Of a stretch of DNA of 64,000 bases, positions 8,501 through 53,716 are shown in pieces; within the stretch, counting starts at the first letter, position 1, and the number at the start of each line of letters is the position of its first letter. The DNA is from an uncultured Marivita sp. GTDB taxonomy: Bacteria > Pseudomonadota > Alphaproteobacteria > Rhodobacterales > Rhodobacteraceae. The notes beneath the pieces were generated by a model. That model was given only the letters and a program-made list of their open reading frames with translations. It searched no databases and was not told the origin of the DNA. The translations under genes and the position numbers were made by a program. Location of the stretch: assembly GCF_947488135.1 (NCBI RefSeq), contig NZ_CANKYW010000001.1, positions 1,116,001 through 1,180,000 on the forward strand. Direction: 5' to 3'.

Positions 8501-8506
8501 CAAGAT

Positions 8507-8824: not shown

Positions 8825-8960
8825 CCCTCTCACATCATCGGGTCTGTGTCTTGGTAATGCCATGCCCGTGTCATCGCGCGCCGCGCTTTCGGACGTGCGG
8901 CCCCTGCGACACGATCCGTTTCACTTGACCTGCGCGCGGCAAGCCCCATCAATAGATTCA

Positions 8961-37675: not shown

Positions 37676-37765
37676 GGACAGGTGGCCGAGTGGTCGAAGG
37701 CGCGCGCCTGGAAAGTGCGTAGGCGGGAGACCGTCTCGAGGGTTCGAATCCCTTCCTGTCCGCCA
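37676..37765 (+). tRNA. tRNA-Ser (anticodon GGA)
   Basis: 90 nt with encoded CCA. The acceptor stem GGACAGG (37676-37682) pairs with CCTGTCC (37755-37761), discriminator G, then CCA. The anticodon loop CTGGAAA gives GGA. The long variable arm (GTAGGCGGGAGACCGTCTC) is the serine type and the T-loop GGTTCGAATCC is canonical. No integrase or repeated 3' end is seen beside it. Confidence 0.97.
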
Positions 37766-37886: not shown

Positions 37887-38384
37887 CTACGGTTCCTTCG
37901 CCTCGTCGTCATCGTCATGGGCGATGCCTTCGGCAACCTTGATGCCGCGGATGATGATCAAGGCGAGGATGGTGGCCACCACCGCCATCAACCACATTCC
38001 GAAACCGGCGCTTAGACCCACACCGGCGGCCAGCCAAAGGCTTGTCCCGGTGGTCAGACCGCGCACCTTGCCTTGCGAGAATACAATCATTCCGGCAGCC
38101 AGAAACGCCACGCCACTCGTTACGGCTTCTACCAGACGCAACGGGTCCATTGACACACGGTCCGCTGCGTGGGCGCTGTCATTGAGAACTTCGAGCATAA
38201 TCAGGCAATACAGCGCCGCCGCCAATCCGACGAGCATGTGGGTCCGCAATCCGGCGGCCCGCCGACGGGTCTCGCGCTCAAGGCCGATCAGACCGCAAAA
38301 GAACACGGCTCCCAGAAGTCGCGTGGCGATCACTTGCCACGGGATGGACGTCTGGGCCGAGAGGTCATTCAAGATTTGTTCCAT
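37887..38384 (-). CDS. MgtC/SapB family membrane protein
   Basis: A 165-residue protein with about four to five helices. LGAVFFCGLIGLERETRRRA (about 24-43) and AAGLRTHMLVGLAAALY (about 43-59) are MgtC signatures, and LVEAVTSGVAFLAAGMI (about 84) is the third. It ends in an acidic tail DDDDEAKEP. The family is tied to magnesium or acid stress and to virulence in other bacteria; exact role here unknown. An EcfG-type promoter lies 32 nt upstream, divergent from a dehydrogenase with its own EcfG promoter. Confidence 0.88.
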   Translation of the reverse strand: MEQILNDLSAQTSIPWQVIATRLLGAVFFCGLIGLERETRRRAAGLRTHMLVGLAAALYCLIMLEVLNDSAHAADRVSMDPLRLVEAVTSGVAFLAAGMIVFSQGKVRGLTTGTSLWLAAGVGLSAGFGMWLMAVVATILALIIIRGIKVAEGIAHDDDDEAKEP

Positions 38385-38415
38385 GAGTGCGTTTACCAGC
38401 AGGCTTTTGACGATT

Positions 38416-38440
38416 AACCCCGTGCGATGGCCACGGTTCC
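38416..38440 (-). promoter_or_regulatory. EcfG-type promoter of the MgtC gene
   Basis: On the minus strand GGAAC (38440-38436), a 16-nt spacer, GGTT (38419-38416), ending 32 nt before the MgtC start. One base off the CGTT consensus in the -10 element. Confidence 0.7.
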
Positions 38441-38454
38441 GGTCACTGTCTCAA

Positions 38455-38480
38455 GGAACACTGGCAAGCCTTCTTGCGTT
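38455..38480 (+). promoter_or_regulatory. EcfG-type promoter of the SDR gene
   Basis: GGAAC (38455-38459), a 17-nt spacer, CGTT (38477-38480): a perfect EcfG consensus, ending 39 nt before the start codon. Back to back with the MgtC promoter, 14 nt apart. Confidence 0.85.
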
Positions 38481-38518
38481 GAGAAGCGAAACTTGCATGA
38501 CCTAAAGGAGTGAGAGCC

Positions 38519-39493
38519 GTGACGGAACGTGTTGCCGTGGTTGCCGGGGGATCCGCCGGTGTCGGTCGGGCCGTCGTCTCGTGTCTGATCGACGATGGAT
38601 ACAGTGTCGGCGTTCTGGCGCGTGGTCAGGAGCGGCTTTCCGAGTTGGAAAAGATCTATGGCGAGAAGGTGCTCGCGCTCACCTGCGATGTCGCCGACGC
38701 CGAAGCAGTGGCCCGTGCCGGGGCCACCATAGAAGACACGCTCGGGCCCGTCTCCGTCTGGGTCAATGCCGCCATGATGACGAGCTTTTCGCCGTTTCCG
38801 AAGATGCAAGCTGACGAATTCCAGCGGATCGTCAACACGACGCTCATAGGCGTCGTCAATGGCACCCGAACGGCACTCGCCCTGATGGAAAAGCGCAATC
38901 GGGGGCGGATCGTGAACGTGGGCTCAGGCCTCGGATACCGGTCGGTGCCCTATCAGTCGGCATATTGCGCCTCGAAACACGGAATCAACGGTTTCACGGC
39001 CTCGATCCGCTCTGAGTTGATCCGCGAGGGAACAGCGATCACCATCAGCGTTGTCCAATTGCCGGCGATAAACACGCCTCAATTCGATTGGGCGCTCAAC
39101 AGGCTGTCGAAAAAACCGCAACCCGCGCCGCCGATCTTTCAGCCGGATGTGGCCGCGCAAGCGATCATGCGGGCCGTTTCGGAAGGCGCGCGCGAATATT
39201 TCGTCGGCAAATCGGTTCTCGAACTCGTTTTTGGCAACATGGTGTTGCCGTCTTGGCTTGATCGCAAATTGGCCGACAGCGGAGCGGAGATGCAGAAATC
39301 GGACGATGATGACCCGGGTGGCCGCCCCAACAATCTGTCCTCTCCGGTGAGCCATATCAGCGCGACGGCGCACGGCCGCTTCGGCAAGGACGCCAAGGAG
39401 AGCGCGCTGATCGTGAACGCCGACCGCGCGCGCGTTGCTGCCTTTGCTATACCACCTCTGGCGGCGCTCTTGATCGGTCTGCTGATCGGCTAG
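38519..39493 (+). CDS. short-chain dehydrogenase/reductase with C-terminal membrane anchor
   Basis: 324 residues. AVVAGGSAGVGRAVVSCLID (residues 6-25) is the TGxxxGxG-type NAD(P) loop with a Val-Ala-Gly variant, VWVNAAMM (about 81) the NNAG-like motif, and YQSAYCASKHGINGF (about 144-158) the YxxxK catalytic pair. The last 20 residues (FAIPPLAALLIGLLIG) form a membrane anchor. Start GTG at 38519 with AGGAG 9-13 nt upstream. Substrate unknown. Preceded by a perfect EcfG-type promoter. Its stop overlaps that of the convergent glucosidase gene (CTAG). Confidence 0.88.
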   Translation: MTERVAVVAGGSAGVGRAVVSCLIDDGYSVGVLARGQERLSELEKIYGEKVLALTCDVADAEAVARAGATIEDTLGPVSVWVNAAMMTSFSPFPKMQADEFQRIVNTTLIGVVNGTRTALALMEKRNRGRIVNVGSGLGYRSVPYQSAYCASKHGINGFTASIRSELIREGTAITISVVQLPAINTPQFDWALNRLSKKPQPAPPIFQPDVAAQAIMRAVSEGAREYFVGKSVLELVFGNMVLPSWLDRKLADSGAEMQKSDDDDPGGRPNNLSSPVSHISATAHGRFGKDAKESALIVNADRARVAAFAIPPLAALLIGLLIG

Positions 39494-41067
39494 GTGCACT
39501 TTGACCAGACCGCGCTGCGCGGTGCGATTTGGTCGGACGCGGTTTGTTCCGCGCTGCTTAAGATTGGCGAAAAGGCAGGCACATCCTGCGGTGTATCGGA
39601 CAGGTTTACAACAAGACTGATGGCCTCCGACGCGCCGATAATCTGCGCATCAAAGTGATCGTCCCGCGAGATGTGGGTTTCTATAGTGCCATCCGCCAAC
39701 CCAAGCCTGCGTCGCAGCGACAGGGCCGTTTGGTAGAACCGCAGGACCGAGCCGTCGTCTGCCCATTGCTGAGCGGCCGCACCATTCGGTGGACACGTGA
39801 TCGGCAACCACGGTGTGCTTTTGGAAAACCCGAAATTCGGTTTTGCGCTATCCCACGCCATCGGGGTTCGTGCCCCATCGCGGCCGGGTGGATCGGGCCA
39901 GTAGCTTTTGTCGAATGGATCGTGCAACGCCTCAAACGGGAGGTCCGGCTGCACCATCCCCAGTTCCTCGCCCTGATAGAGAAGCACCGGACCGGGCAAT
40001 GCCAAGATTATCGCGGCGAAGAGCCGGGCGTCCCGCGCGCTGCCATCGCCGAAGCGGCTGACGTGACGCGGTTGGTCATGCGAGGACAGCCACCACGCCA
40101 ACTCACAAGGCGTCCCCAGCCGCTCCAGAACGTCCGCCAGCACTGTCCCGGTCATACCGCGTTCCTGAAAGTCGATCACGTAGCCCGCATCGAGGCGGTT
40201 CGCGCCAGTGAAGCGCCGCAGAATCTCGACCGAACGCGGCCCCTCGTTGACCTCGCCGATGAGGTACGTGTCAGGCCCCGCCCAGTCGCGAATGTCGCGG
40301 CTGAACGCAGCGCAATTGTCCGGCAGCATGTCGTAGTCGTGGCGCTGCATGGTATAGGGATTGCTTGCCGGTCCGGGGATGCGGGCCTGTGCCGTGTCAG
40401 CGGGGGGATTGTCACGAAATTCCGGGTCGAAATAGAAACTGGTCACGGCATCGTAACGAAAACCGTCGACGCCGCGCGCACGCCAGAACTCGGTGACTTT
40501 GCGCAATGCGGCATGAACCTGCGGATTGCGATGGTTCAGGCAAGGCTGACAAGGCAGAAACTGGTGCAGGCAATACTGGCGCCGCTGCGGATGCCATTTC
40601 CACGCCGCCTGTCCGAAAAACGCGATCCAGTTGGACGGCGCGCTGCCGTCGGGCCGGGGGTCGGCCCAGACGTACATATCTTCGTACCCCGGCTCTCGTG
40701 CGCGCGACTTGAGGAACCAGGGGTGGCGATCAGAGGTGTGATTGAACACCTGGTCGATCATCACCCGCAGGTTCAAGGCATGAGCGCGCTCCACGAGCGC
40801 GTCGAAATCATCCAAAGTGCCGAAACGCGGATCGACCCGGCTTTGATCTGCCACATCATAGCCGCCGTCGCACATCGGTGAGACGAAGAAAGGCGATAGC
40901 CAGAGGCCGTCCACGCCCAGGCACGCGATGTGATCCAGGCGAGCGATGACGCCGCGCAAATCACCCTCGCCCGTTCCGGTGCTGTCCTGAAACGAGCGGG
41001 GGTAGACCTGATAGATCACCGGGTTTGCCGGCCAAAGACCGCGTTTCGGTCGGGGTTCAGCTTCCAA
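39490..41067 (-). CDS. GH13 alpha-glucosidase-type enzyme
   Basis: A 525-residue glycoside hydrolase of family 13 (oligo-1,6-glucosidase/alpha-glucosidase branch). VIYQVYPRSFQDSTGTGEGD (17-36, MIYQIYPRSF-type), MIDQVFNHTSDRHPWF (103-118), GFRYDAV with nucleophile Asp206, LIGEVNEGP with acid/base Glu272 and SSHDQPRH with Asp331 are all intact. No signal peptide, so cytoplasmic. The start is a TTG at 41067 inside the end of the upstream SDR gene (11-nt overlap), so it shares that gene's transcript and its EcfG-type promoter. Confidence 0.9.
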   Translation of the reverse strand: MEAEPRPKRGLWPANPVIYQVYPRSFQDSTGTGEGDLRGVIARLDHIACLGVDGLWLSPFFVSPMCDGGYDVADQSRVDPRFGTLDDFDALVERAHALNLRVMIDQVFNHTSDRHPWFLKSRAREPGYEDMYVWADPRPDGSAPSNWIAFFGQAAWKWHPQRRQYCLHQFLPCQPCLNHRNPQVHAALRKVTEFWRARGVDGFRYDAVTSFYFDPEFRDNPPADTAQARIPGPASNPYTMQRHDYDMLPDNCAAFSRDIRDWAGPDTYLIGEVNEGPRSVEILRRFTGANRLDAGYVIDFQERGMTGTVLADVLERLGTPCELAWWLSSHDQPRHVSRFGDGSARDARLFAAIILALPGPVLLYQGEELGMVQPDLPFEALHDPFDKSYWPDPPGRDGARTPMAWDSAKPNFGFSKSTPWLPITCPPNGAAAQQWADDGSVLRFYQTALSLRRRLGLADGTIETHISRDDHFDAQIIGASEAISLVVNLSDTPQDVPAFSPILSSAEQTASDQIAPRSAVWSKCT

Positions 41068-41911
41068 CGATCATCCCACCGTTCGGATGCAGGGTCTGTC
41101 CGGTGAAATAATTGCCGTCGTCGCTTGCCAGGAAAAGATAGGATGTCGCCACCTCCCAAGGCTGACCGGCGCGCCCCATCGGGACCTGCGTGCCGAAATC
41201 CTCGACCATGTCCGCAGGCATCGTACCGGGAATGAACGGCGTCCAGATCGGGCCGGGTGCCACACAATTCACGCGGATGCCGGCTTCGACGAGCTGCGCG
41301 GCGACAGAGCGCGAAAACGCGGTGATTGCTCCGCGTGTGGCGGAGTAGTCCACCAACGCTGCATTGCCCTTGAACGCGTTGACGCTGGCAGTGTTGACGA
41401 TCGCGCCGCCCTTGGGGATGTGGTCGAGCGCGGCCTGCGTGCAAAAGAAATAGCCCATGACATTGCTGTCGAATGTACGGCGCAAATGGTCTTCGGTGAT
41501 ATCGCGCAGGTCTGTTTCCATGTATTGCTGGGCCGCGTTGTTCACCAGAATGTCCAGACCACCCAGCTTGTCGACCAGGGCCTCGACGGCTGCAAACGCT
41601 TCGTCCCGCTTGCCGATATCGGCTTTCCTGGCAAAAGCGATGCCGCCCTCGTTCTCGATGGCGGCACAGGTGTCTTGGGCATCTTTGTCTTCTTCAAGAT
41701 AAATGAGTCCGACCTTCGCCCCCTCGCGTGCGAAGAGCACCGCGACTGCGCGACCGATGCCGCTGTCGCCGCCGGTAATGATAGCGCATTTGTCCTTCAA
41801 TTTGCCCGTCCCAGGATGGCGCGGCTGCCAATCGGGCGCCGGATCCATCTTGTGCTCGTCCGCGGGCATGCTGTCCTGTTCTTGCGGTGGAATTTTCTTG
41901 GTTTCGGTCAT
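41057..41911 (-). CDS. SDR family oxidoreductase of the general stress (YdaD/GS39-like) type
   Basis: 284 residues. An unusual N-terminal extension of about 45 residues (IPPQEQDSMPADEHKMDPAP, DWQPRHPGTGKLKDK) precedes CAIITGGDSGIGRAVAVLFA (the NADP loop, about 47-66), ILVNNAAQQY (about 127-136) and VDYSATRGAITAF, where YSATRG replaces the usual YxxxK: Lys is Arg-Gly shifted, i.e. Tyr-Ser-Ala-Thr-Arg. This Tyr-x3-Arg change at the catalytic lysine position should be checked. The start at 41911 has AAGGAG 7-12 nt upstream. An EcfG-type promoter precedes it. Related proteins in Bacillus are general stress proteins. Confidence 0.85.
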   Translation of the reverse strand: MTETKKIPPQEQDSMPADEHKMDPAPDWQPRHPGTGKLKDKCAIITGGDSGIGRAVAVLFAREGAKVGLIYLEEDKDAQDTCAAIENEGGIAFARKADIGKRDEAFAAVEALVDKLGGLDILVNNAAQQYMETDLRDITEDHLRRTFDSNVMGYFFCTQAALDHIPKGGAIVNTASVNAFKGNAALVDYSATRGAITAFSRSVAAQLVEAGIRVNCVAPGPIWTPFIPGTMPADMVEDFGTQVPMGRAGQPWEVATSYLFLASDDGNYFTGQTLHPNGGMIVGS

Positions 41912-41944
41912 GACGATCTCCTTGTCGCTGAGCCTTTGTGTCTC

Positions 41945-41969
41945 AACCGTCACCGAGATTTCGGGTTCC
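41945..41969 (-). promoter_or_regulatory. EcfG-type promoter of the SDR-glucosidase operon
   Basis: Minus strand GGAAC (41969-41965), a 16-nt spacer, GGTT (41948-41945), ending 34 nt before the start codon. It lies in a 350-nt gene-free stretch (41912-42261) that also holds the divergent promoter at 42172; between them (41970-42171) I see nothing further that I can name. Confidence 0.7.
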
Positions 41970-42171
41970 ATGCGCTGCTGGAAAGATGCCGAGATGGGCG
42001 GGACGACGAACCTTGCAGCGCCGGTAACCGGGCGTCGTTGTCCGATGAGCGAAGCAGACGCCTGCAAACCCAAAGTCGATAAAGCGTGGTGGCCAAGAGA
42101 CGGCCGCCGCACGCGCGAGGACAAGAAAAGGCGTTTCGATGCTCCGATTTTCGCGGTTTTTCCCGGATCTT

Positions 42172-42197
42172 GGAACAGTCGCTGCTGCACGATGGTT
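42172..42197 (+). promoter_or_regulatory. EcfG-type promoter of the PRC-barrel gene
   Basis: GGAAC (42172-42176), a 17-nt spacer, GGTT (42194-42197), ending 65 nt before the ATG. One base off the CGTT consensus. Confidence 0.68.
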
Positions 42198-42261
42198 GGT
42201 AAAACAATCGTCGTGATGAAAGCGGCGATCCCACGTGATGAAAGAAAGAAAGGATTGCGTA

Positions 42262-43584
42262 ATGAAACGGCTTCTTACTACCACAGCCCTTGTTGCCATG
42301 ACGTCAATGCCTCTTGCTGCGGAACAGCACAGCACCTCTGCAACAAGTGGGAACTCCTCCGTTCAGGTTGGCGAACAAGAGGTTCGCGTCTCCAATCTGA
42401 TGGACGCAACAGTTTATATGCCACAGGACGTAAGCTCTGATGTGGCCGACGTGCAGATCACCGATGGCGCACCCGAAGACTGGACCGAGATCGGGTCCAT
42501 CAGCGACGTTTTCGTCGACCAGTCGGGTCAGGTCTCGACAGTGGTTCTGTCACCGAATGACAGCGCCGGTACCGATGCAAATGCGCTTGGCCTCATGATG
42601 GACAGCGTGACCGTCAAGACCAGCGAGAATGGGGATCAGATTTTCGTCGTCTACACCGGCGACAAGGTCAGCCTCGAACAAGGTGAAGAGTTCGATCAGG
42701 CTCAGGCCGAAGAAGATGGCATGATGTCGGCGAACGATCGGCAGGATGGACAAATGGCGGCATCCGAGTCTGGCACCATGCAGAATGACGCAAATGCCGA
42801 CAGCAGCCAGATGGCAGATGCGCAGAACGCTGAGATGGAAAGCAACGGTCTGACCATTCGTGCCGCGGAATTGAACGGATATCCGGTTTATGTGCCGGGC
42901 GAAGGATCAACCGGTGACGAAATTCCCATGGAAGTGACCGGTGTCGACGATGCGTGGGAGCGTGTTGGCGAAATCGGTAGCGTGGTTCTGTCGCGCGACG
43001 GCGAGATCAAATCGGTCACGCTGGATGCCGGCGGTTTCCTCGGCATGGGGGAAAAGGAAGTCGAAACCACGATGGAAGAACTGCGCTTCGTTCGTGACAG
43101 CGACGATGACGGCGAATACTTCATCGTATTCACCGGTGACCGCAGCGCACTTGAAGAGCGCGAAGAGTACGACGAAGCAACGTCACGCGAACAGGGCGAA
43201 CAGCGTCTGACCAACGAGGATATCGCTCGGAGCACGCGGGCGAATGCGCAGGAAACCGGTGAGACGGTCGCCTCGGGCAGCGACAGCGGTGGCGAAGCAG
43301 AAACCGAAATCCTCGCAGCCGAGGAACTTGACGGTGCCCCCGTGTACGACTCCACCGGCGAAGAGATCGGTAATATTTCCGAACTTGTCGTCAACGATTC
43401 CGGTGAGATCTCGGAAGTCGTGATCGATGTGGGTGGTTTTCTGGGGCTTGGCGAAAAGCCCGTTGCCATTTCCTACACGGACCTGATGATCGACAAATCC
43501 GTCGATACGGCATTTGGAGATGTGCGCGTCAGCGTAAATCATTCCCGTGACGAACTGGAAAGTATGGAGCGCTGGACTCAGTAA
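42262..43584 (+). CDS. exported protein with tandem PRC-barrel repeats
   Basis: A 440-residue acidic protein with a signal peptide (residues 1-20, RLLTTTALVAMTSMPLAA). Three PRC-barrel-like units follow: about 38-140, about 200-300 and about 345-430. The last two share IGSVVLSRDGEIKSVTLDAG / ISELVVNDSGEISEVVIDVG and then GGFLGMGEKEV / GGFLGLGEKPV. Linkers are rich in Gln, Ser, Glu, Asp and Met. Probably periplasmic; function unknown, though PRC proteins are common in stress regulons. The ATG at 42262 has AAAGGA 9 nt upstream. Confidence 0.8.
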   Translation: MKRLLTTTALVAMTSMPLAAEQHSTSATSGNSSVQVGEQEVRVSNLMDATVYMPQDVSSDVADVQITDGAPEDWTEIGSISDVFVDQSGQVSTVVLSPNDSAGTDANALGLMMDSVTVKTSENGDQIFVVYTGDKVSLEQGEEFDQAQAEEDGMMSANDRQDGQMAASESGTMQNDANADSSQMADAQNAEMESNGLTIRAAELNGYPVYVPGEGSTGDEIPMEVTGVDDAWERVGEIGSVVLSRDGEIKSVTLDAGGFLGMGEKEVETTMEELRFVRDSDDDGEYFIVFTGDRSALEEREEYDEATSREQGEQRLTNEDIARSTRANAQETGETVASGSDSGGEAETEILAAEELDGAPVYDSTGEEIGNISELVVNDSGEISEVVIDVGGFLGLGEKPVAISYTDLMIDKSVDTAFGDVRVSVNHSRDELESMERWTQ

Positions 43585-43611
43585 CGGCACTTCCGAAATT
43601 TCTTGACCACG

Positions 43612-43644
43612 AAGGGGACCGGCGAACGTCGGTCCCCTTTTTTT
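43612..43644 (+). terminator. intrinsic terminator of the PRC gene
   Basis: AAGGGGACC (43612-43620) pairs with GGTCCCCTT (43631-43639), then a run of T. Strong Rho-independent terminator 28 nt after the stop, also serving as boundary to the convergent phosphoesterase gene. Confidence 0.92.
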
Positions 43645-43674
43645 ACGCTCTTGTTGTGGTGGATAAGGGGCGCA

Positions 43675-44490
43675 TCAGGGGCGATTGTCTGCCTCTATCG
43701 CGCGCCAGCCGGTCTCGCCGCGTTCAAATACAACGCTTTGTTCCTTGTGGAAATGAGCCACGTCCCGGCCGACATAGCGGTCAATTCGGGCCATCGCACC
43801 GTCCAGCGTCAGCAGGTTGAAATCGTTTTCCTGACCCCGCAACCGGTTCGAGAGGCCAGTTCCCGCATGCACTTGCAGAACCGCAGGCTCAGTGGGCGCC
43901 GAGGCAAATACATCCGCCCGCCAACTGTGAAGATGGCCGGACAGAACGATATCCGTCCCCAGCCGAGCCAATGCCGATATCGCGGCATCCGCGCCGCGCA
44001 TCAGCTTTTTGCGTTCGCCGGGAAGGTGTTCCAACGGGTGATGGACGACCACGATCCGAAAAGCACTGTCCGGTGTGTCGGCAAAGCCTTGCTCTACGGT
44101 CCTGATGTCCTTCGCGTCGAACCAGCCTCGCTGCCAGCCCAGCGGATTGACCGAATTGATACCGATAATCGACCACTCGGGATCGTGCACCTGCGGTTCA
44201 AGATCGGTGGAAATCCACTTTCGATAGCGCCGCCAGGGCATGAAAATCCGCTCAGGCAGATTATCAAGCGGGGTGTCATGGTTCCCGGGCACCACGAGCA
44301 CAGGGCTTTGCAGGCTGTCGATAAGATCACGGGCCTGCTTGAACTGCGAGGCGCGCGCGCGCTGCGTCAAATCGCCGGAAATCGCGACGATATCGGGTGC
44401 AAGCGCGTTGATCGTGTCGATCAGCGGGGGTAAAAGCTCGGGTCGGTCGCGCCCGAAATGCAGATCTGAGACATGCAGTAGCCGTTTCAT
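43675..44490 (-). CDS. metallophosphoesterase (calcineurin-like)
   Basis: 271 residues with a full two-metal phosphoesterase set: HVSDLHFGRDRP (DxH, Asp9/His11), DIVAISGDLTQRA (GD, Asp40 or near), VLVVPGNHDTPLDN (GNHD), VVVHHPLEHLPG (about 147) and VLSGHLHSWRAD (GHxH, about 182). Class III cyclic nucleotide phosphodiesterase-like. Start ATG at 44490 with GAAGG 9 nt upstream; it overlaps the upstream lipid kinase stop by 4 nt. The pairing suggests a joint role in lipid or nucleotide signalling, not proven. Confidence 0.88.
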   Translation of the reverse strand: MKRLLHVSDLHFGRDRPELLPPLIDTINALAPDIVAISGDLTQRARASQFKQARDLIDSLQSPVLVVPGNHDTPLDNLPERIFMPWRRYRKWISTDLEPQVHDPEWSIIGINSVNPLGWQRGWFDAKDIRTVEQGFADTPDSAFRIVVVHHPLEHLPGERKKLMRGADAAISALARLGTDIVLSGHLHSWRADVFASAPTEPAVLQVHAGTGLSNRLRGQENDFNLLTLDGAMARIDRYVGRDVAHFHKEQSVVFERGETGWRAIEADNRP

Positions 44491-45395
44491 CGTGTGCCTT
44501 CGTCTGAGCCCGGAGGCACGATCATATTGAGCGTGTCGTCGCTGAGGCCAATGCGGAAGGGTCCGGTCATGCGACGGCGTTCCCCATCGCACGCAACAAG
44601 AAGCTTCGACCGCTCGGTGGTCAGTTCGAAGCGATCACAGCAATACAGGTGGAAATCGCGATGCCGTGCGGCTTTGCCAAGCAACATGGCCGCTGCACTG
44701 CGCAACATGCCAAGGCGTCCTTGGTCTGGCGCGACCAGCATCGCCAGCTCGCCGTTTTCGATGCAGTCCGCGCCCTCCATGCCCATATGACGCAGTTGGA
44801 ACGCATTGTTGAGGACAAAAATCATCGGCGTTCTGACCGTCTCGTTCGTGTCGTTATTCCTGATCGTTACCGTCAGGGGTTTCGGCCATTGAAACAACAC
44901 CTTGAGAGCCGACCAATAGGCCGCGCCGCGGCTGCGGCCCCAGAAATTGTAGATATCCTCGCGGGATCGGAGGATCTGCGGGTAGAGACCGAAATTCGCG
45001 TTGTTCAGAAACACGGTGTCGTTCAAGAGGGCTACCCGCAGCGGCCGACTGTTCCCACGCGCAATGACCGCAACCGCGTCGTGCAGGTTTTGCGGGATAT
45101 CCAGGGATCGCGCGAAATAATTGAATGTCCCGCGGGGCAGGATGCCAAAGCGACACTCTTTCCCCAAAAGGGCTTGCGCCACGCCACTGATGGTGCCGTC
45201 GCCTCCGGCGGCAATCACCGTCGTCGTTCCGCCCTCGATGACACGTGAGACCGTGTCATGCAGCGATTTTGCGGGATCGAGATGGACGATCTGCGGCGAT
45301 AGACCCACCCGGTCGAACGCGGCCTGAATGTCCGAAGCGCTTGGTCCGGCGTGTTTCTTGCCGGAATGATCGTTGAGCAGAACACAAGGTTGCAT
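44487..45395 (-). CDS. diacylglycerol kinase-family lipid kinase
   Basis: 302 residues of the DAGK catalytic/YegS type: CVLLNDHSGKKH at the N-terminus, the nucleotide loop TTVIAAGGDGTISGVAQALL split (GGDGT at about 60-64), LGKECRFGILPRGTFNYFAR (about 76-95) and the NANFGLYP block (about 129). It phosphorylates a lipid such as diacylglycerol; which one is unknown. Translationally coupled to the phosphoesterase downstream. No EcfG-type site was found in its own 110-nt upstream gap, so it may be read through from the coiled-coil gene. Confidence 0.85.
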   Translation of the reverse strand: MQPCVLLNDHSGKKHAGPSASDIQAAFDRVGLSPQIVHLDPAKSLHDTVSRVIEGGTTTVIAAGGDGTISGVAQALLGKECRFGILPRGTFNYFARSLDIPQNLHDAVAVIARGNSRPLRVALLNDTVFLNNANFGLYPQILRSREDIYNFWGRSRGAAYWSALKVLFQWPKPLTVTIRNNDTNETVRTPMIFVLNNAFQLRHMGMEGADCIENGELAMLVAPDQGRLGMLRSAAAMLLGKAARHRDFHLYCCDRFELTTERSKLLVACDGERRRMTGPFRIGLSDDTLNMIVPPGSDEGTR

Positions 45396-45448
45396 GTCGT
45401 GTGATGCCGTTTCTGAAGGGGTCCACGCGTCGTGTATGCACTGTCCGC

Positions 45449-45499
45449 CATCATGCCGGGCAGGCAGGAAGGCCACACGCCATGTCCGCCGGCATGATG
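45449..45499. repeat. 11-bp inverted repeat in the gap before the lipid kinase
   Basis: CATCATGCCGG (45449-45459) and CCGGCATGATG (45489-45499) with a 29-nt loop. It lies just past the stop of the coiled-coil gene on the minus strand and could be a weak terminator or an mRNA stabilising hairpin; there is no T-run. Confidence 0.45.
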
Positions 45500-45505
45500 A
45501 TTGGA

Positions 45506-46741: not shown

Positions 46742-46794
46742 TGTCTGTCTCCTCGTCTGCAAATGCGCATCAGCGCGCCTTGTAATGATGTGAC

Positions 46795-46820
46795 AACGGC
46801 AGGCTGTGGCGCTTGGTTCC
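46795..46820 (-). promoter_or_regulatory. EcfG-type promoter of the coiled-coil gene
   Basis: Minus strand GGAAC (46820-46816), a 17-nt spacer, CGTT (46798-46795): perfect consensus, ending 54 nt before the start codon. Confidence 0.85.
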
Positions 46821-46864
46821 CTGTCAGCCCGCATTTGGGGCCCAGAGAGGATAGACTGTCGGCG

Positions 46865-48178
46865 TCAATCGCGTCCGACGAATTCTTCTGCCGCGCCGGG
46901 ATGAATGCCAGTGACGGCACGCGTATTGGAACCGACCAAGGCGGCGCCCAGAGCGGTGACGATATCCGGCGCGCTCGTGCCGAGGGCCGCGACACCCAAG
47001 AGCCCTTCGGACCCTTCCTTCACTTTCCGCCCGGTGCGTGCGGTCCAGTGCTCCGGCGGTGTCAATGCCGCCTCGATCAGATCGAAATCGACTTCCATCT
47101 CGACGTTGTCGAACTGTCCGATCTGCGCGATGGGCGGCATGGTGAACGCGGCACGCGCGACGAAGGAAAGGTCGATCAGGGGCGGGCATTCCGGTCCGTA
47201 AAGACGGTGAGCCAGAGTTTCGCCATCGCGCGTGGCCACGGGTGTCAGGGGCAGCCGGTCGGCGCAATCGCCGACGGCGAACACGCCCGGATGCGAGGTC
47301 TGCAAACCGTCATCGACGGCGAAGGCCCCGGACTCGGCGGTTTTCAGCGTTTCGGTGAACCCGCCGGGAAGGTCGGTGCGCGGCTCGCGTCCCGTCGCGA
47401 CGACGACCTGGTCCACCGTGATGGTCGTGCCGTCATCCAACGAGACGCACATGCCGTCTGCCGCTTTTTCGAGCGCGGATGGCGTTTTCCCCAAATGCAG
47501 AGTTATACCACGGGCGCGCATCACCTCTGCGGTCAGATGTGCGATATCACTGTCAAATCCGGAAAGAACCCGCTCATTGGGATCGACAAGATGCACCTCT
47601 ACCCCGAGGCCAGTGAAAATCGACGCGAACTCGCTTCCGATATATCCGGCACCCAATAACGCCAGTGAGCGGGGCAGGGTCGTCCAACCGAAGACGTCAT
47701 CGCTGGTTTGTGCCAACTCCACGCCCTTGAAATCGGGAATTTTTGGCGTCGCTCCGGTCGCGAGAACAAGAGCGTTTGCCGAATAGGTGTCATCGCCGAC
47801 TGTCACCGTTCGTGCATCGGTCACAATCGCTGTGCCGAACAGCGTTGTCACACCGGCCTGCCGAAGACTGTCGGAATAGCTTTGACGGATGATCTCCTGC
47901 TTCTCGGTGATCCGTTCTTGCAATATAGGGAAATCCGGGCGCGGAGGCGCGGGGGCCAGACCTTGTTCACAGGCGGCACGCAGACGCTCATGCGTCCAAG
48001 TGGCCTCCCACATGAGCTTCTTCGGCACGCACCCACGATTGACACAAGTGCCTCCGATGGCATCCTTTTCGATCAGGCAGACGGATGCTCCAAGCTGTGC
48101 TGCCGTTGTCGCGAACGCCACTCCGCCCGAGCCTCCACCGATGACGATCGTGTCGAATGTCCGGGTCAAGTTGCGCAC
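46865..48178 (-). CDS. class I pyridine nucleotide-disulfide oxidoreductase (glutathione reductase-like)
   Basis: 437 residues, FAD- and NAD(P)H-dependent. FDTIVIGGGSGGVAFATTAA (8-27, FAD loop), GGTCVNRGCVPKKLMW (42-57, redox-active CxxxxC), ALVLATGATPKIP (about 136), the NAD(P) loop LALLGAGYIGSEFASIF (about 170-186) and VFAVGDCADRLPLTPVA (about 296, FAD). The C-terminal HPGAAEEF keeps the base His-Glu pair of glutathione reductases. It is slightly shorter than typical glutathione reductase (about 450). Substrate not certain. No EcfG site was found upstream. Confidence 0.88.
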   Translation of the reverse strand: MRNLTRTFDTIVIGGGSGGVAFATTAAQLGASVCLIEKDAIGGTCVNRGCVPKKLMWEATWTHERLRAACEQGLAPAPPRPDFPILQERITEKQEIIRQSYSDSLRQAGVTTLFGTAIVTDARTVTVGDDTYSANALVLATGATPKIPDFKGVELAQTSDDVFGWTTLPRSLALLGAGYIGSEFASIFTGLGVEVHLVDPNERVLSGFDSDIAHLTAEVMRARGITLHLGKTPSALEKAADGMCVSLDDGTTITVDQVVVATGREPRTDLPGGFTETLKTAESGAFAVDDGLQTSHPGVFAVGDCADRLPLTPVATRDGETLAHRLYGPECPPLIDLSFVARAAFTMPPIAQIGQFDNVEMEVDFDLIEAALTPPEHWTARTGRKVKEGSEGLLGVAALGTSAPDIVTALGAALVGSNTRAVTGIHPGAAEEFVGRD

Positions 48179-48320
48179 TCCTTATGTCATGGAAAACCGG
48201 CTGAGGGACCGAGGGTTTGAAATCAAAGCCGACAGGTCCGGCGCCATGGCTGTTGAGCGATTAATTCGCGGGGCTGGCGTTTTGTTCCATCAGCCCTTTC
48301 GCTGAGGCGAGACCGCTGGG

Positions 48321-50729
48321 TCAGGACTTGAGCGCTGCCTCCAGCTTTGCGATCCTGGACTTACTCAAACCGACCGCGTCAGTCATGATATTCGGATCGT
48401 CGCGATCCTGCGCCGTTTCCAGATCGAATGCCGCGGCGCTCTTGATCTTTGCCAATTCGTCCCACGTCACCGGCACGGCCACCGGCGCACCGGGGCGCGC
48501 GCGCAGGGAAAACGGCGCGATCGCGGTCGATCCGCGTTCGTTGCGCAGCCAGTCGATGAAAATGCGGCCCTTGCGCTTGGCCTTGGACATCTGCGCGGTA
48601 AAGCGGTCGGGGTGCCGCGTGGCCAACAGTTCAGCAAAGACGCGGGCATAAAGTTTGACCGTGTCCCAACCCGCGACCCGGCGCAGCGGTACGACCACGT
48701 GGATTCCCTTGCCCCCCGACAGCAGCGGCCAGCTTGGCAGGTCGAGGTCCGTCAGCGTGTCGCGGATTTGAATGGCGGCCTCCTTCACATCGCCGAACCC
48801 CAGCCCCTCGTCCGGGTCGAGGTCGAAGACCAGACGGTCGGGCCGCTCCAGCCGGTCGCGGCGGCTGCCCCAGATATGGAACTCGATGGTGCCCATCTGT
48901 GCTGCGGCGACAAGCCCCTGTGCGTCGGTGACATACATGTAGGGTTCGCGGTTGCCGTCGCTTTCCTCGATCTCCAGTGTCTTGATACCCTCGGGAAAGC
49001 CCTTTCCGGCGTGTTTCTGAAAGAAGGACTGGCCCTTGAGCCCGTCCGGCAGGCGCAAGAGCGACAGCGGGCGGTCGGCGGCAGTCTCGAGGATGCGGTC
49101 GGCCATCGCCTCGTAATAGCGCGCGACATCGAGCTTGGTGAACTTCGCGCCGGGAAAGACCGGTCGGTCGGCCGAAGAAATGCCGATCCCGGCGACGGGA
49201 ATGCGGTCGGACACGGCGGGCTCCCTATCGTTGTCGAGTGTCACGCTGCGGGCGGGTTTGTCTTCGCGCAAGCCGTGAAAGACCGCGTGGCGCAGGCGGC
49301 CGTCATCGGTGCGTTCGGCATAGGCGATCTCGGCCACCAGTCGCGGGGTGATCCACTGCACGCCGCGCGCCTCGCTTGCGGGCAGATCGGCGGGCGGTGT
49401 CTTGCGCGCCAGTGGTTTCATCGCGCTCGCCAGCGCCTCCATCTGGTCGGCGTCGAACCCGGTGCCGACCTTGCCGACATAGACCCAGCCGTCACCGTCC
49501 GCCGCGCCGAGGGCCAGCGAGGCGAAGGGCCGCCCGCGCTTGTCGCTTTCCTGCCAGCCGAGGATGACGAACTCGTCGCGCCGTTCGCATTTGATCTTGT
49601 ACCACGCCTTGGTCCGGGTGCCGCGATAGGGCGCATCCATGCGTTTGGCGATCAGCCCTTCGCCGCCCGCACCGCAGATCGTGGTGAAGGCGTCCTGAGC
49701 ATTCTCGCGGATCACCGGGGACAGTTGCGCAGGGCCGAGCGGGGGCAGGGGGGAGAACAGCTTGTCCAACGCGGCGCGGCGGTCGGTCAGGGGCTGGTCG
49801 GTCATGTCCTGCCCGTCGCGCGACAGCAGGTCGAAGGCATAGAAACGGAACGGCCCGCCCGCGGTGATCGCCTTTTGCAGGTTGGAAAACCCCTGCAACC
49901 CGGCGCCCGCGACGATCTCGCCGTCGATCAGCGCGGCGTCGCAGGCGATATCCTCAAAGGCGGGAAGCAGGCTTTCGAACCGGTCGGTCCAGTCCTTGCC
50001 GTTGCGGGTGAAGACGCGCGGGCCGTCTTTCCCCAGCGCCAGAAGCGCACGGTAGCCGTCGAACTTGACCTCGTGCCACCAGCCTTCGCCCGCGACCATC
50101 TCGGACGAAAGCGTCGCCAGTTGCGGCTTGGCGAAGAGCGGGCGCTTGCCATGATGGGTGTCCAAGGACTGCTTCTCCGCGGTGATCTCGCGGAAGGTCC
50201 GGTGCGTGGCGACCGAGCGGCGGTAGCGGGTGACCGGATCGCGCGCGCCGGCGGCGGCGTCATCGGCCTTGGTCAGCAGCCAGTTTTCGCGCTTTTCCCT
50301 GGTCTTCATGCGAATGAGATGCCAGTCCCCCGCCAGACGCGCGCCGTGCAGGCGCAGATGAAGGTGGCCCTTGGCCAGCCCCTTGTCCACGGGAATCAGC
50401 GGTTCCCAATGGCCGATATCCCACAGCATGACGGTGCCCGCGCCGTAGTTGTCCTTCGGGATCGTGCCCTCGAAGGTCAGGTAGCTGAGCGGATGATCTT
50501 CCGTGCGCACGGCAAGGCGTTTATCGCTTGTGTCGAAGGACGGCCCCTTGGTGACGGCCCAGGACAATAGCACTCCGTCCCATTCCAGCCGCAGGTCGAA
50601 ATGCAGCCGCGTGGCGTCGTGTTTCTGAATGCTGTAGCGCGGGGCGAGGTGACGCGCGGCGTGGGCCTCGGACGGCTCGGGCGTGCGGTCGAAATCCCGC
50701 ATCTCGATATAGCGGTCGAGGCTGCCCAT
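48321..50729 (-). CDS. ligD: multifunctional DNA ligase D (NHEJ)
   Basis: 802 residues joining double-strand breaks with Ku. Order phosphoesterase-ligase-polymerase: PE domain about 30-190 (HDATRLHFDLRLEWDGVLLS, residues 37-56, and TIPKDNYGAGTVMLWD), ATP-dependent ligase about 205-490 (EVKFDGYRALL with the adenylated Lys, DAPYRGTRTKAWYKIKCERR near its end), and archaeo-eukaryotic primase-type polymerase about 510-800 (LVFDLDPDEG metal site, LLSGGKGIHVVVPL). All active residues appear intact. Its ATG shares one base with the ku stop (TGATG). Confidence 0.96.
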   Translation of the reverse strand: MGSLDRYIEMRDFDRTPEPSEAHAARHLAPRYSIQKHDATRLHFDLRLEWDGVLLSWAVTKGPSFDTSDKRLAVRTEDHPLSYLTFEGTIPKDNYGAGTVMLWDIGHWEPLIPVDKGLAKGHLHLRLHGARLAGDWHLIRMKTREKRENWLLTKADDAAAGARDPVTRYRRSVATHRTFREITAEKQSLDTHHGKRPLFAKPQLATLSSEMVAGEGWWHEVKFDGYRALLALGKDGPRVFTRNGKDWTDRFESLLPAFEDIACDAALIDGEIVAGAGLQGFSNLQKAITAGGPFRFYAFDLLSRDGQDMTDQPLTDRRAALDKLFSPLPPLGPAQLSPVIRENAQDAFTTICGAGGEGLIAKRMDAPYRGTRTKAWYKIKCERRDEFVILGWQESDKRGRPFASLALGAADGDGWVYVGKVGTGFDADQMEALASAMKPLARKTPPADLPASEARGVQWITPRLVAEIAYAERTDDGRLRHAVFHGLREDKPARSVTLDNDREPAVSDRIPVAGIGISSADRPVFPGAKFTKLDVARYYEAMADRILETAADRPLSLLRLPDGLKGQSFFQKHAGKGFPEGIKTLEIEESDGNREPYMYVTDAQGLVAAAQMGTIEFHIWGSRRDRLERPDRLVFDLDPDEGLGFGDVKEAAIQIRDTLTDLDLPSWPLLSGGKGIHVVVPLRRVAGWDTVKLYARVFAELLATRHPDRFTAQMSKAKRKGRIFIDWLRNERGSTAIAPFSLRARPGAPVAVPVTWDELAKIKSAAAFDLETAQDRDDPNIMTDAVGLSKSRIAKLEAALKS

Positions 50730-51565
50730 CAGGCCGATTTCTCGGACCGCGACGTGGATTTCTTCTTGGTCCCGCCGCCGTCTTTCTTGAGGCTTTCCTT
50801 CAACGCCGCCATCAGGTCCACCACGTTTTCGCCCGACGCGCCGTCATCGTCCCCGGCCTTGGCGCGGGGCGTTTTCTTGGACTTGCGCTTGCGCTCGATC
50901 AGGTCGCGCAAGGCTTCGTCATAGCGGTCGGTAAAGGCGGAAGCGTCGAAGCTGTCGGTCTTGCGATCGATCAGCTGCGTCGCGACCTCAAGCAACTCTT
51001 CGTCCGCGGATTCGTCCGCGATCTCGTTGAACAGCGGATCGGCCTCCTTGATCTCGTCGGCGTAATGCAGCGTTTCGAGCAGGATGCCGTCGCCACAGGG
51101 ACGCAGGGCGCACAGATATTCCTTGCCGCGCATGGTCAATTGCCCAAGACCCACCTTTTCGGCCTGCCGCAGCGCATCGCGCACCACGCGGTAGGCGTCT
51201 TCGGCCAGATCGTCGGTGGGGATCACGTAGTAGGGACGGTCGTAGTAAAGCGGCGGAATCTCGGACAGGCCGACGAATTGCACCAGTTCGAGGGTTTTCT
51301 TCGTCTCCAGCTTGATCGCGTCCACCTCGTCTTTTTCGAGCAGCAGATATTCGTCGTCGCCCAACTCGTAGCCCTTGAGGATGTCCTCTGTCTTGACAGG
51401 CCCGATGCCCGGCACCGTCTTTTCGTAGCGCACGCGCTTGCCGGAGGGGCCGTGGATTTGCCGGAAGCTCACTCGCGCGCCGGATTTGGTGGCGGAATGG
51501 ATTTCCACCGGAATGCTCACCAGCGACAACCGAAGCTGCCCTTTCCAGACTGCGCGTGATGCCAT
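50729..51565 (-). CDS. ku: Ku DNA end-binding protein
   Basis: 278 residues, homodimeric ring that binds broken DNA ends and recruits LigD. WKGQLRLSLVSIPVEIHSAT (7-26), VSFRQIHGPSGKRVRYEKTV (about 33-52), KGYELGDDEYLLLEKDEVDA (about 63-82) and YYVIPTDDLAEDAYRVVRDA (about 111-130) are the bacterial Ku core; a Lys-rich C-terminal tail follows. The ATG at 51565 is preferred: GGAGG lies 5 nt upstream, and the ATG before it is too close. A one-mismatch EcfG-type site lies 25 nt ahead. Operon ku-ligD. Confidence 0.95.
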   Translation of the reverse strand: MASRAVWKGQLRLSLVSIPVEIHSATKSGARVSFRQIHGPSGKRVRYEKTVPGIGPVKTEDILKGYELGDDEYLLLEKDEVDAIKLETKKTLELVQFVGLSEIPPLYYDRPYYVIPTDDLAEDAYRVVRDALRQAEKVGLGQLTMRGKEYLCALRPCGDGILLETLHYADEIKEADPLFNEIADESADEELLEVATQLIDRKTDSFDASAFTDRYDEALRDLIERKRKSKKTPRAKAGDDDGASGENVVDLMAALKESLKKDGGGTKKKSTSRSEKSA

Positions 51566-51589
51566 CATGTCCTCCTTTTTCAACTACCT

Positions 51590-51615
51590 AACGCCGAATT
51601 GAGCGCCAAAGTTGC
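51590..51615 (-). promoter_or_regulatory. imperfect EcfG-type promoter of ku-ligD
   Basis: Minus strand GCAAC (51615-51611), a 17-nt spacer, CGTT (51593-51590), ending 25 nt before the ku start. One mismatch in the -35 element (GCAAC for GGAAC); position and spacing fit. Confidence 0.45.
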
Positions 51616-51710
51616 CTTGCGCCAGTCGAGGGTTGGCGGAGCGCTCTGCGCCACAGCCTTCTTTTGGGCCGTTGATGCCCAGAGCATCTTGTTCTGCGAA
51701 GCGCTGATAC

Positions 51711-51743
51711 AAAAAGCCCGCACCCATTGTCCGGGCGCGGGCT
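51711..51743 (-). terminator. intrinsic terminator after the CsbD gene
   Basis: On the minus strand AGCCCGC and GCGGGCT (51743-51737 and 51721-51715) pair around a GC-rich loop, followed by TTTTT (complement of 51711-51715). It separates csbD from ku, so ku needs its own promoter. Confidence 0.85.
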
Positions 51744-51773
51744 GATTCTCGTATCCAAAGGAAGATGGCCTAA

Positions 51774-51974
51774 TCAGGCTGCGTTATTCGACCAAGCGTC
51801 GACTTCGCGTTCTGCCTCTTCTTTCGATTTTCCGTATTTTTCCTGGATGGCACCGACAAGCTTGTCGCGATCACCTTCGACCTGTTGCAGATCATCGTCG
51901 GTGAGCTTGCCCCATTGGCGCTTGGCTTCACCCTGCATCTGTGTCCATTGGCCTTTGATTTGGTCCCAATTCAT
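51774..51974 (-). CDS. CsbD family stress protein
   Basis: A 66-residue hydrophilic protein: WDQIKGQWTQMQGEAKRQWG (residues 3-22), LTDDDLQQVEGDRDKLVGAI and QEKYGKSKEEAEREV are the CsbD pattern. CsbD was defined as a sigma-B-dependent general stress protein in Bacillus; its molecular role is unknown. Here a perfect EcfG-type promoter lies 39 nt upstream, which fits a stress-induced gene, and a strong terminator follows. Confidence 0.93.
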   Translation of the reverse strand: MNWDQIKGQWTQMQGEAKRQWGKLTDDDLQQVEGDRDKLVGAIQEKYGKSKEEAEREVDAWSNNAA

Positions 51975-52012
51975 GAGTGCCCCCTTTCGGTGTTTCAGTG
52001 TTACAGGCAGAC

Positions 52013-52038
52013 AACGACCAGCGCCGCTGGAAGGTTCC
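52013..52038 (-). promoter_or_regulatory. EcfG-type promoter of csbD
   Basis: Minus strand GGAAC (52038-52034), a 17-nt spacer, CGTT (52016-52013): perfect consensus, ending 39 nt before the start codon. Confidence 0.88.
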
Positions 52039-52070
52039 TGAACTTTGGCCCGATACGGGCAGATGACCGC

Positions 52071-53345
52071 TTACCAGAAATGTTCCACCTGAATACCGAA
52101 GTTGACGCCGTCGCGACCGTCATAGCCGGACGCGATCCCGCTGTCTTCGGCCGCTTCGTCCCATGCGGCGTACGTGCCATAGACCCGGACCACGGGGCGA
52201 TCGAAAAAATCGGGCCCCGACGGCTTCCATTCGATCGCGGCTGTCAACTTGCCCAAACTGCGTGATGGCCCGCTTTCGGGGACCACGTGATCGATACCGG
52301 CTTCGACCGCGAGATAGGTCTCATCTCTCAACTGCCAGATCGGACGCGCGCCGATGGAATACCAGTCTTCGAGATCGGATCGCACTTCCGCCACGGCAGT
52401 CGCCTGAATCGAGAACGCGTCGGACGCGTTCCAGAGATATTGACCGACGCCACGAACTGTCCGCCAGTCATCGGGCGCATCCGCGTCGGAGGCGAAGGAC
52501 AAAGAGTGGCCCGCGCCCCAACCGGTTTGAAGCGCGAATGTCCAAGCGCCGCCGCGCGGATCTTCGTAGCTCAATTCGGCAGTGACCATCCCGCCGCCGT
52601 CGTTTCTGGCATCAAGGTCGTCATCGGGAAAACGGTAGTCCGCGCCCAGGGTGAGCGTCGTGCTGTCTGACAGTGTGATGTCCTCGATCCGCGCGTCCAC
52701 GCGGGTATAGGCATCGCCGTCGTCCCATGCGCTTTCAAAGCTGCCGCCACTATGGGTGAATACTGCAAGTGCCCCCGTGCCGAACCCGAGTTCGACATCC
52801 TCGATCCCGACACCGGTGCCGGTGGCGTCCCAGTAATAGAAGTCGTTGATGTGCACATCGGATCGCTTGTAGAATCGATGCCCGAACCAGATTTGCGCAT
52901 CGGCAAATGCGCCGCCGCCCAAGACCCGCCGCGCCCCGAACCACGCCTCTTCCCCGTAAAAATCAAAATCGTCGAAGTCGTTTATCGGCGTGCCGACGGC
53001 ACTGGCCCGCAGGTTGAAGGTGAAGAGGGGGCCGGTGTTTTCGTCGCCAAGGCTCAGGGTGAAGCCGGGTTCGAGATAGATCTCGCATTCATTCCCAAGT
53101 CGATATTTGGCCCCGGCACCGGGCAATTGAAAACAGCCCTGATCCTCTCCATCCGATGCTACTCCCAGACCGGCCCGCAGATAACCAAAGCTTTCGAGCC
53201 GCGCATTTCCGTTGGTCCCGTCGGTTTGGCCATGTGCGAGGGTTGGACTGATCAGAAGACCGAACCCGACCAACCGGCAGATGGTGTTCAGCGATGTGTG
53301 TCTGTTGAAATGAAGCCAAGACATTGTTTTGCCACTGTGTTTCAT
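52071..53345 (-). CDS. LamB/maltoporin-family outer-membrane porin
   Basis: 424 residues. After a signal peptide (about 1-32, ending LAHG-Q) comes SFGYLRAGLGVASDGEDQGC and FQLPGAGAKYRLGNECEIYL (about 63-82), matching the start of maltoporins, then IWFGHRFYKRSDVHINDFYY (about 140-159) and WDATGTGVGIEDVELGFGTG, also maltoporin blocks, and a C-terminal strand ending in HFW (terminal aromatic, outer-membrane type). Sugar uptake is likely. The start is uncertain: ATG at 53345 is used, an alternative is 53324, and neither has a good ribosome site. It lies 55 nt after the DUF883-like gene and is probably co-transcribed with it. Confidence 0.75.
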   Translation of the reverse strand: MKHSGKTMSWLHFNRHTSLNTICRLVGFGLLISPTLAHGQTDGTNGNARLESFGYLRAGLGVASDGEDQGCFQLPGAGAKYRLGNECEIYLEPGFTLSLGDENTGPLFTFNLRASAVGTPINDFDDFDFYGEEAWFGARRVLGGGAFADAQIWFGHRFYKRSDVHINDFYYWDATGTGVGIEDVELGFGTGALAVFTHSGGSFESAWDDGDAYTRVDARIEDITLSDSTTLTLGADYRFPDDDLDARNDGGGMVTAELSYEDPRGGAWTFALQTGWGAGHSLSFASDADAPDDWRTVRGVGQYLWNASDAFSIQATAVAEVRSDLEDWYSIGARPIWQLRDETYLAVEAGIDHVVPESGPSRSLGKLTAAIEWKPSGPDFFDRPVVRVYGTYAAWDEAAEDSGIASGYDGRDGVNFGIQVEHFW

Positions 53346-53400
53346 ATCCTGATGCACAAAGGCGAACCGAGGTCGCCAAAGGCCATTGGTTCGCCGAGCC

Positions 53401-53667
53401 CTAACGCGCGCGAAGCGCAACTCCGAGAAAGATGCCGAAACCGATGGCACCGAGCATGGCGAGTGTCGGGTTTTCCTGCACGAACCGTTTGCCGCGCAGC
53501 GATGCCTGGGTTGCGGTGTCGTTGATTTGGCGGTGCGCTTCGTCGGCCACCTCGCGCGCTTGCGTGTCTCTCGCAGTATTTCGTGCCTTGCGAAGTAGCC
53601 CCGTCGATCCGGAGCTATCGTTTTGCGGTATGTAGGTTTGGGTCGTGTCGGGATGATAGGTTGTCAT
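53401..53667 (-). CDS. DUF883/ElaB-like small membrane-anchored protein
   Basis: 88 residues: a hydrophilic helical part (NTARDTQAREVADEAHRQIN, about 31-50) and a C-terminal membrane helix ENPTLAMLGAIGFGIFLGVA then LRAR, the layout of the DUF883/ElaB/YqjD family, whose members sit on the inner membrane and bind ribosomes in E. coli stationary phase. GGAG lies 6-9 nt upstream of the ATG. A promoter of EcfG type lies 24 nt ahead. Confidence 0.8.
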   Translation of the reverse strand: MTTYHPDTTQTYIPQNDSSGSTGLLRKARNTARDTQAREVADEAHRQINDTATQASLRGKRFVQENPTLAMLGAIGFGIFLGVALRAR

Positions 53668-53690
53668 GCGACGTCTCCTTTTCCCGGTTT

Positions 53691-53716
53691 AACCTGCAAA
53701 TCGGCGGTACGGTTCC
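53691..53716 (-). promoter_or_regulatory. EcfG-type promoter of the DUF883-like gene
   Basis: Minus strand GGAAC (53716-53712), a 17-nt spacer, GGTT (53694-53691), ending 24 nt before the start codon. One base off CGTT. Confidence 0.68.

Follow-up and report, generated by a model that had tools for sequence, protein, structure and literature searches.

The DNA analyzed here is a 64,000-nucleotide window from the genome of an uncultured Marivita sp. of the order Rhodobacterales, in which a block of 14 genes, beginning just 3′ of a tRNA-Ser (GGA) gene, carries a cluster of promoter boxes resembling those of EcfG, the sigma factor of the alphaproteobacterial general stress response (GSR). The tRNA gene (37676 to 37765, + strand; detected by ARAGORN) forms the left border of the block. 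The first gene encodes an MgtC family protein (37887 to 38384, − strand; Pfam MgtC, 107.4 bits against a cut-off of 31.4) and is followed by a short-chain dehydrogenase, SDR1 (38519 to 39493, +; Pfam adh_short). A GH13 alpha-amylase-family enzyme (39490 to 41067, −; Pfam Alpha-amylase, 327 bits), for which no NCBIfam equivalog exceeded its cut-off, is the second gene of a presumed operon headed by another short-chain dehydrogenase, SDR2 (41057 to 41911, −; Pfam adh_short_C2; start set by hand). A PRC-barrel protein (42262 to 43584, +; Pfam PRC in two stretches), the start of which was also set by hand, precedes a three-gene presumed operon on the − strand, which reads from a coiled-coil membrane protein (45506 to 46741; Pfam coiled-coil matches, all below the cut-off) through a DAGK/YegS-type lipid kinase (44487 to 45395; Pfam DAGK_cat; hand-set start) to a metallophosphoesterase (43675 to 44490; Pfam Metallophos). 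A glutathione-reductase-like oxidoreductase (46865 to 48178, −; Pfam Pyr_redox_2) lies next to ku-ligD, of which ku is the head (50729 to 51568, −; Pfam Ku) and ligD encodes DNA ligase D (48321 to 50729, −; Pfam LigD domains; NCBIfam TIGR02776, 603.9 bits against a cut-off of 373.2). By Pfam and NCBIfam, the pair has the components expected for end joining, that is, a Ku domain and a LigD with phosphoesterase, ligase, and primase-polymerase domains. A CsbD family gene (51774 to 51974, −; Pfam CsbD) and a presumed operon of a small DUF883-like protein (53401 to 53667, −) and, in second place, a LamB-type porin (52071 to 53324, −; Pfam LamB) complete the block. The DUF883-like protein, which is named by resemblance, had no hits in Pfam or NCBIfam; part of the phyR locus of the same genome (L009) matches it at 36%. 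Strand, overlaps, and short gaps suggest a division into nine units: mgtC; SDR1; SDR2-GH13; PRC; coiled coil-lipid kinase-phosphoesterase; reductase; ku-ligD; csbD; and DUF883-like-porin.

The strict pattern GGAAC-N16/17-(C/G)GTT occurs seven times in the approximately 16-kb cluster (38416 to 53716), at the coordinates and on the strands reported by the first-pass annotation of this DNA, and the imperfect copy reported at 51590 to 51615 is present as well. All eight boxes are intergenic and directed toward a gene, as had been claimed, and the gap of 24 to 65 nt then given between box and start codon holds to within a few bases, with measured values of 21 to 64 nt. The sites were also scored with a profile, described below. 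The first two boxes are divergent, one (38416 to 38440, −; N16, GGTT; profile score of 19.9) lying 31 nt before mgtC and the other (38455 to 38480, +; N17, CGTT; score of 17.8) lying 38 nt before SDR1. The boxes of SDR2 (41945 to 41969, −; N16, GGTT; 33 nt; score of 14.3) and of the PRC gene (42172 to 42197, +; N17, GGTT; 64 nt; score of 12.5, the weakest of the set) have gaps that depend on the hand-set gene starts; with the automatic caller, the SDR2 start overlaps the box, and the PRC start falls well downstream of it. The coiled-coil gene is preceded at 53 nt by a box at 46795 to 46820 (−; N17, CGTT; score of 19.1), and ku is preceded at 21 nt by the imperfect box, GCAAC-N17-CGTT, with one mismatch (51590 to 51615, −; score of 17.1). 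The best box of the set (52013 to 52038, −; N17, CGTT; score of 22.3) lies 38 nt before csbD, and the last (53691 to 53716, −; N17, GGTT; score of 16.7) lies 23 nt before the DUF883-like gene. The glutathione-reductase-like gene has no good box, the best matches upstream of it carrying two mismatches. Eight of the nine units are thus boxed, and if the operons are as proposed, promoters of this type would serve 13 of the 14 genes. An eighth strict site of the window (7169 to 7193, +; score of 17.9) is located outside the cluster; it too is in promoter position, with a gap of 24 nt to a DUF4345 gene.

The window as a whole contains eight strict sites. In 100 shuffles, the average was 2.17, and no shuffle had as many as eight. 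The position of the sites relative to genes was compared with a background of 18 stretches of 20 kb, evenly spaced along contigs C1 and C2 of the same genome (about 8% of it), with gene starts predicted by a crude codon-score caller. All seven strict sites of the island are in promoter position in 16.4 kb when three starts are corrected by hand (SDR2, PRC, and lipid kinase) and five of seven are before correction, compared with 3 sites in 360 kb of background; other spacers gave no such site in the island. Counted by unit heads, seven of nine in the island have a strict site and eight of nine have a site if GCAAC is included, versus 3 of 211 background heads, a comparison in which all nine island heads are hand-defined and the background starts are automatic. 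In 4,000 shuffles of the nine upstream regions, never more than one was boxed. When automatic starts are used on both sides, the island has 5 boxed heads of 11, versus 3 of 211 in the background (P = 6e-6); the same starts give 1 boxed head of 37 in the rest of the window and 8 of 10 at the phyR locus. A density equal to the genome average was looked for and is not the case, as the island exceeds the background. In a ranking of 16-kb segments over contigs C1 to C7, with the site listing reaching part of C8, the island comes second with 7 sites, after the phyR locus with 12 and before segments with 6, 6, and 5. The idea that it is the densest cluster in the genome was thus rejected.

The genome has one canonical phyR/nepR/ecfG locus, in which phyR and nepR (at C3:244248) are divergently oriented and ecfG follows shortly downstream. 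At C3:243 to 245 kb, Pfam detects NepR, PhyR, and sigma factor domains, and NCBIfam assigns the PhyR family (350.8 bits; cut-off of 240) and the PRK12546 sigma factor (311.2 bits; cut-off of 270) there. The gap between phyR and nepR contains overlapping divergent boxes. This locus (L009:9000-20000 and L010:1-4300; C3:234 to 249 kb) is the densest box cluster, and it also carries DUF1328, DUF2383, BrkB, Pmp3, DUF4112, CsbD, and release-factor-family genes; at least one of its 12 sites (250273) is inside a gene. Similar clusters, of 4 to 9 noncoding sites, are present at the phyR-type loci of related genomes. In 18 such loci from 17 related genomes (336 kb), promoter-position motifs number 68 at spacer 16, 33 at spacer 17, and 24 at spacer 21, versus 0 to 4 at other spacers; we read the 24 spacer-21 matches as overlapping divergent phyR/nepR boxes seen crosswise. 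A box profile was built from 107 distinct sites of the relatives' phyR-type loci, with none from the window, and it scores the strict island sites at 12.5 to 22.3 and the Ku site at 17.1, versus 2.0 to 14.0 for 18 sites in coding sequences (P = 1e-4). Two small contigs, C20 (L113) and C13 (L118), encode CsbD (61%) and PRC-barrel paralogs; a DUF1328 gene and a PRC-type gene on them are preceded by boxes and are likely further EcfG targets.

Several observations weigh against an EcfG cluster in the window. The three sites that had been singled out as perfect (38455, 46795, and 52013) do carry the CGTT −10 box, but the number of CGTT sites in the window, three, does not by itself exceed chance expectation (three or more in 17 of 100 shuffles). 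GGTT, found in four of the seven strict sites, is the less common form, with 24 of 107 sites in the training set. Without hand-set starts, two of the strict sites drop out of the count, and the PRC site, with a score of 12.5, falls inside the range of the chance sites and therefore cannot be separated from chance by the profile alone. Genome-wide, the bare pattern shows no excess over the same pattern written backwards (CGTT, 114 versus 129; GGTT, 85 versus 95). It follows that many individual matches in the genome arise by chance and that their position must be the deciding criterion. That the motif matches of the island are also mostly chance, in a G+C-rich genome, draws on this missing excess and on the CGTT count, but it is hardly credible in view of the placement upstream of genes, the spacer specificity, the shuffles, the background heads, and the independently made profile. 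Spacer specificity is also visible genome-wide, with 114 matches at N16-17 versus 64 at N20-21 (binomial P = 2e-4). In our view, the comparison of automatic-start heads refutes the chance explanation.

A −35 element similar to GGAAC is common to many extracytoplasmic function (ECF) sigma factors, and the genome encodes, besides EcfG, three proteins that match it at 25 to 34% identity, none of them a close paralog. These points favor the alternative that another ECF sigma factor with an overlapping −35/−10 preference reads the boxes instead of EcfG or together with it. However, the profile that fits the island was made from phyR loci, and the CGTT/GGTT −10 box with a spacer of 16 or 17 is the published EcfG consensus, GGAAC-N16-17-C/GGTT, which an excerpt of a study on Rubellimicrobium gives in the same form as the pattern used here (PMC12148442), so this alternative appears improbable. 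Very probably, therefore, the region represents a satellite cluster within the general stress regulon of PhyR, NepR, and EcfG, with eight boxes that EcfG is predicted to read. It is a satellite rather than the main physical cluster because the phyR-nepR-ecfG locus is denser. The proposal of one physical stress island under EcfG accordingly stands with respect to EcfG-like boxes, the presence of the regulators in the genome, and a density above background, and it fails as a description of the regulon's main cluster.

The partner switch of PhyR, NepR, and EcfG is established in other species. If it works in the same way here, phosphorylated PhyR would pull NepR off EcfG under stress, and the freed EcfG, together with RNA polymerase, would transcribe from the eight boxes, the regulators themselves being located elsewhere, on contig C3. 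End-joining repair by Ku and LigD would then be switched on within a common set that may also comprise envelope and small stress proteins (MgtC, PRC-barrel, CsbD, the DUF883-like protein with the porin, and the coiled-coil membrane protein with the lipid kinase and the phosphoesterase) and redox and sugar enzymes (the two short-chain dehydrogenases and the GH13 enzyme). The reading of the sites by EcfG, the operon structure, and the roles of the genes are predictions from the nucleotide sequence.

In Sinorhizobium meliloti, end joining is controlled by the EcfG ortholog RpoE2. The excerpted results of a study on Sphingopyxis granuli place ku-ligD in the measured GSR regulon and report GGAAC and GCAAC as the two commonest −35 boxes, GCAAC being second (PMC7083833), and excerpts of a study on Sphingomonas melonis tabulate Ku, a PRC-barrel protein, and a glycosidase as EcfG-dependent genes with motifs (PMC6599016). 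Among 56 Ku loci, nearly all from Rhodobacterales but including Roseitalea (L077) and an unclassified alphaproteobacterium (L094) and excluding two of Palleronia, promoter-position sites number 33 at spacer 16 and 24 at spacer 17, versus 0 to 3 at each other spacer from 8 to 27. For sites directly upstream of Ku, L077 was dropped, the two Palleronia loci were added, and L094 was left out as lacking upstream DNA; a G(G/C)AAC site lies at most 200 nt upstream of Ku in 24 of the resulting 56 loci. A further comparison, in which 55 of the first 56 loci were usable, also took in other groups; there, a GGAAC site within 300 nt of Ku is present in all six Devosia loci and absent from the loci of sphingomonads (four), Aurantimonas/Jiella (three), and Bradyrhizobium (nine). 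Control of Ku by EcfG would therefore be common, and not general, in the sampled loci.

In the Ku tree, the window Ku groups with that of Sulfitobacter brevis (99/91), the second Ku of the genome groups with those of Oceaniglobus and Thalassorhabdomicrobium (100/100), and the Ku of genome G008 groups with that of Sedimentitalea (100/99), which indicates that the two copies of this genome are not a recent duplication. The second Ku-LigD pair (L110:697-11041; C1:1000.7 to 1011.0 kb), the Ku of which is 71% identical to that of the window, has as neighbors an SDR2 paralog, a catalase, a Na/H exchanger, and an MgtC paralog, with five noncoding boxes around it. A twin island at that place (C1:994 to 1020 kb) is not claimed, as sites lie within 150 nt of only 1 head of 12 and within 600 nt of 3. 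Conservation of the block across the order was rejected, because few island genes other than ku-ligD have matches at 80 Ku loci, and these are mostly weak likenesses of the short-chain dehydrogenases; the closer matches are PRC at L047 and L089, SDR2 at L049, the phosphoesterase and lipid kinase at L053, and CsbD at L068. Among 691 plasmid records with a match, three were taken in which Ku-LigD lies on plasmids of 185 to 260 kb (L139, L140, and L141), beside otsB, kdp, or other genes; the annotation of these loci, from Sulfitobacter alexandrii, Paracoccus marcusii, and P. liaowanqingii, contains no other island gene.

The tRNA-Ser (GGA) gene follows the same left flank in all 14 same-genus loci, consisting of an MscS-type channel, an AlaX-like protein, and a small membrane protein, the last of which was not found in L129. 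None of the 14 loci has an island gene after the tRNA gene, in the 36 nt to 11.8 kb of sequence beyond it per locus, which suggests that the block in this location does not go back to the ancestor of the genus. Three same-genus genomes have a serine recombinase gene 3′ of the same tRNA gene (L121:1825-3150, L123:12329-13657, and L129:5548-6873). As read from these sequences, the DNA behind tRNA-Ser is a variable slot. Of the same-genus genomes searched, 1 of 14 has the porin and 1 of 11 has Ku, and SDR1 had no match above 35% identity among the relatives listed. The codon usage of the island is slightly off (median of 0.153 versus 0.210 in the background; P = 0.036, 12 genes), and its base composition is like that of the rest of the window. 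Pfam detected no integrase among the 14 genes, two of which (coiled-coil and DUF883-like) had no hit above the cut-off. The last 21 nt of the tRNA gene are single copy in the window at up to three mismatches, and no clean empty site was found, as the right-hand neighbors IspD and PurL were not seen beyond the tRNA gene in the relatives' DNA that was read. The window also contains a tmRNA gene (8495 to 8827, +) with the tag ANDNHAPVAMAA.

The block is probably accessory, because it lies 3′ of tRNA-Ser, none of its genes was seen at that place in the 14 loci of the genus, and its Ku clusters with a sequence from another genus. It has perhaps been gained laterally, and we infer gain by this genome rather than loss by the others; old diversity with loss in the other genomes also fits the Ku tree and the missing block. 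A different history, in which genes that are singly under EcfG control gathered by chance in the variable slot, each with its own past, so that the island was never a unit, is a serious contender with a chance somewhat short of even. It is favored by the different DNA that relatives carry behind tRNA-Ser, three of them with a serine recombinase, by the scarcity of island genes other than ku-ligD near Ku in the 80 Ku loci, and by the lack of an integrase or a repeated tRNA end that would mark the block as one element. Against it, eight of nine adjacent units are boxed, far above the genome rate. This history accepts EcfG control of each unit and denies only a single unit of descent, leaving the satellite cluster of the EcfG regulon as described above.

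A further idea, which we consider rather doubtful, is that cassettes with their own EcfG boxes carry stress and end-joining genes between Rhodobacterales, this genome then having two Ku-LigD sets of separate descent and the genus at least three Ku lineages. If so, a newly gained kit for repair and protection would immediately come under the general stress response already present in the host, and the movement of cassettes with their promoters would help to explain species differences in the regulon of a conserved sigma factor. Among the papers listed by the literature searches, there was no published EcfG stress island and no report of this response in Marivita. For Rhodobacterales, an order with few studies found on this response, the block yields a defined list of predicted EcfG targets, ties end-joining repair to the predicted EcfG response there, and indicates that part of the predicted regulon is probably accessory, lying in variable DNA next to a tRNA gene.

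Similar to tRNA-borne genomic islands, the block lies 3′ of a tRNA gene, is unseen there in relatives, and belongs to a slot of variable content; it differs from them in having no integrase gene, no repeated tRNA end, and a base composition like that of the rest of the window. With the EcfG (ECF15) general stress regulon of Alphaproteobacteria and its PhyR-NepR partner switch, it shares the promoter consensus, a genome that encodes all three regulators, and similar kinds of targets, as Ku-LigD, PRC-barrel, and glycosidase genes are reported for sphingomonads in the excerpts of the two studies cited (PMC7083833 and PMC6599016). Unlike in those cases, the targets are packed here in one 16-kb block away from the regulators, and their EcfG dependence is predicted. 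In Sphingopyxis granuli TFA, according to the excerpted text, ku-ligD is likewise part of the GSR, and GCAAC, the variant found before the window ku, is a frequent −35 element (PMC7083833), whereas in this genome ku-ligD stands among other boxed stress genes and is known from sequence. The kind of system and the placement of Ku-LigD under EcfG, as in Sphingopyxis, are thus already known, and what the window adds is the co-location of these predicted targets and their probable accessory nature.

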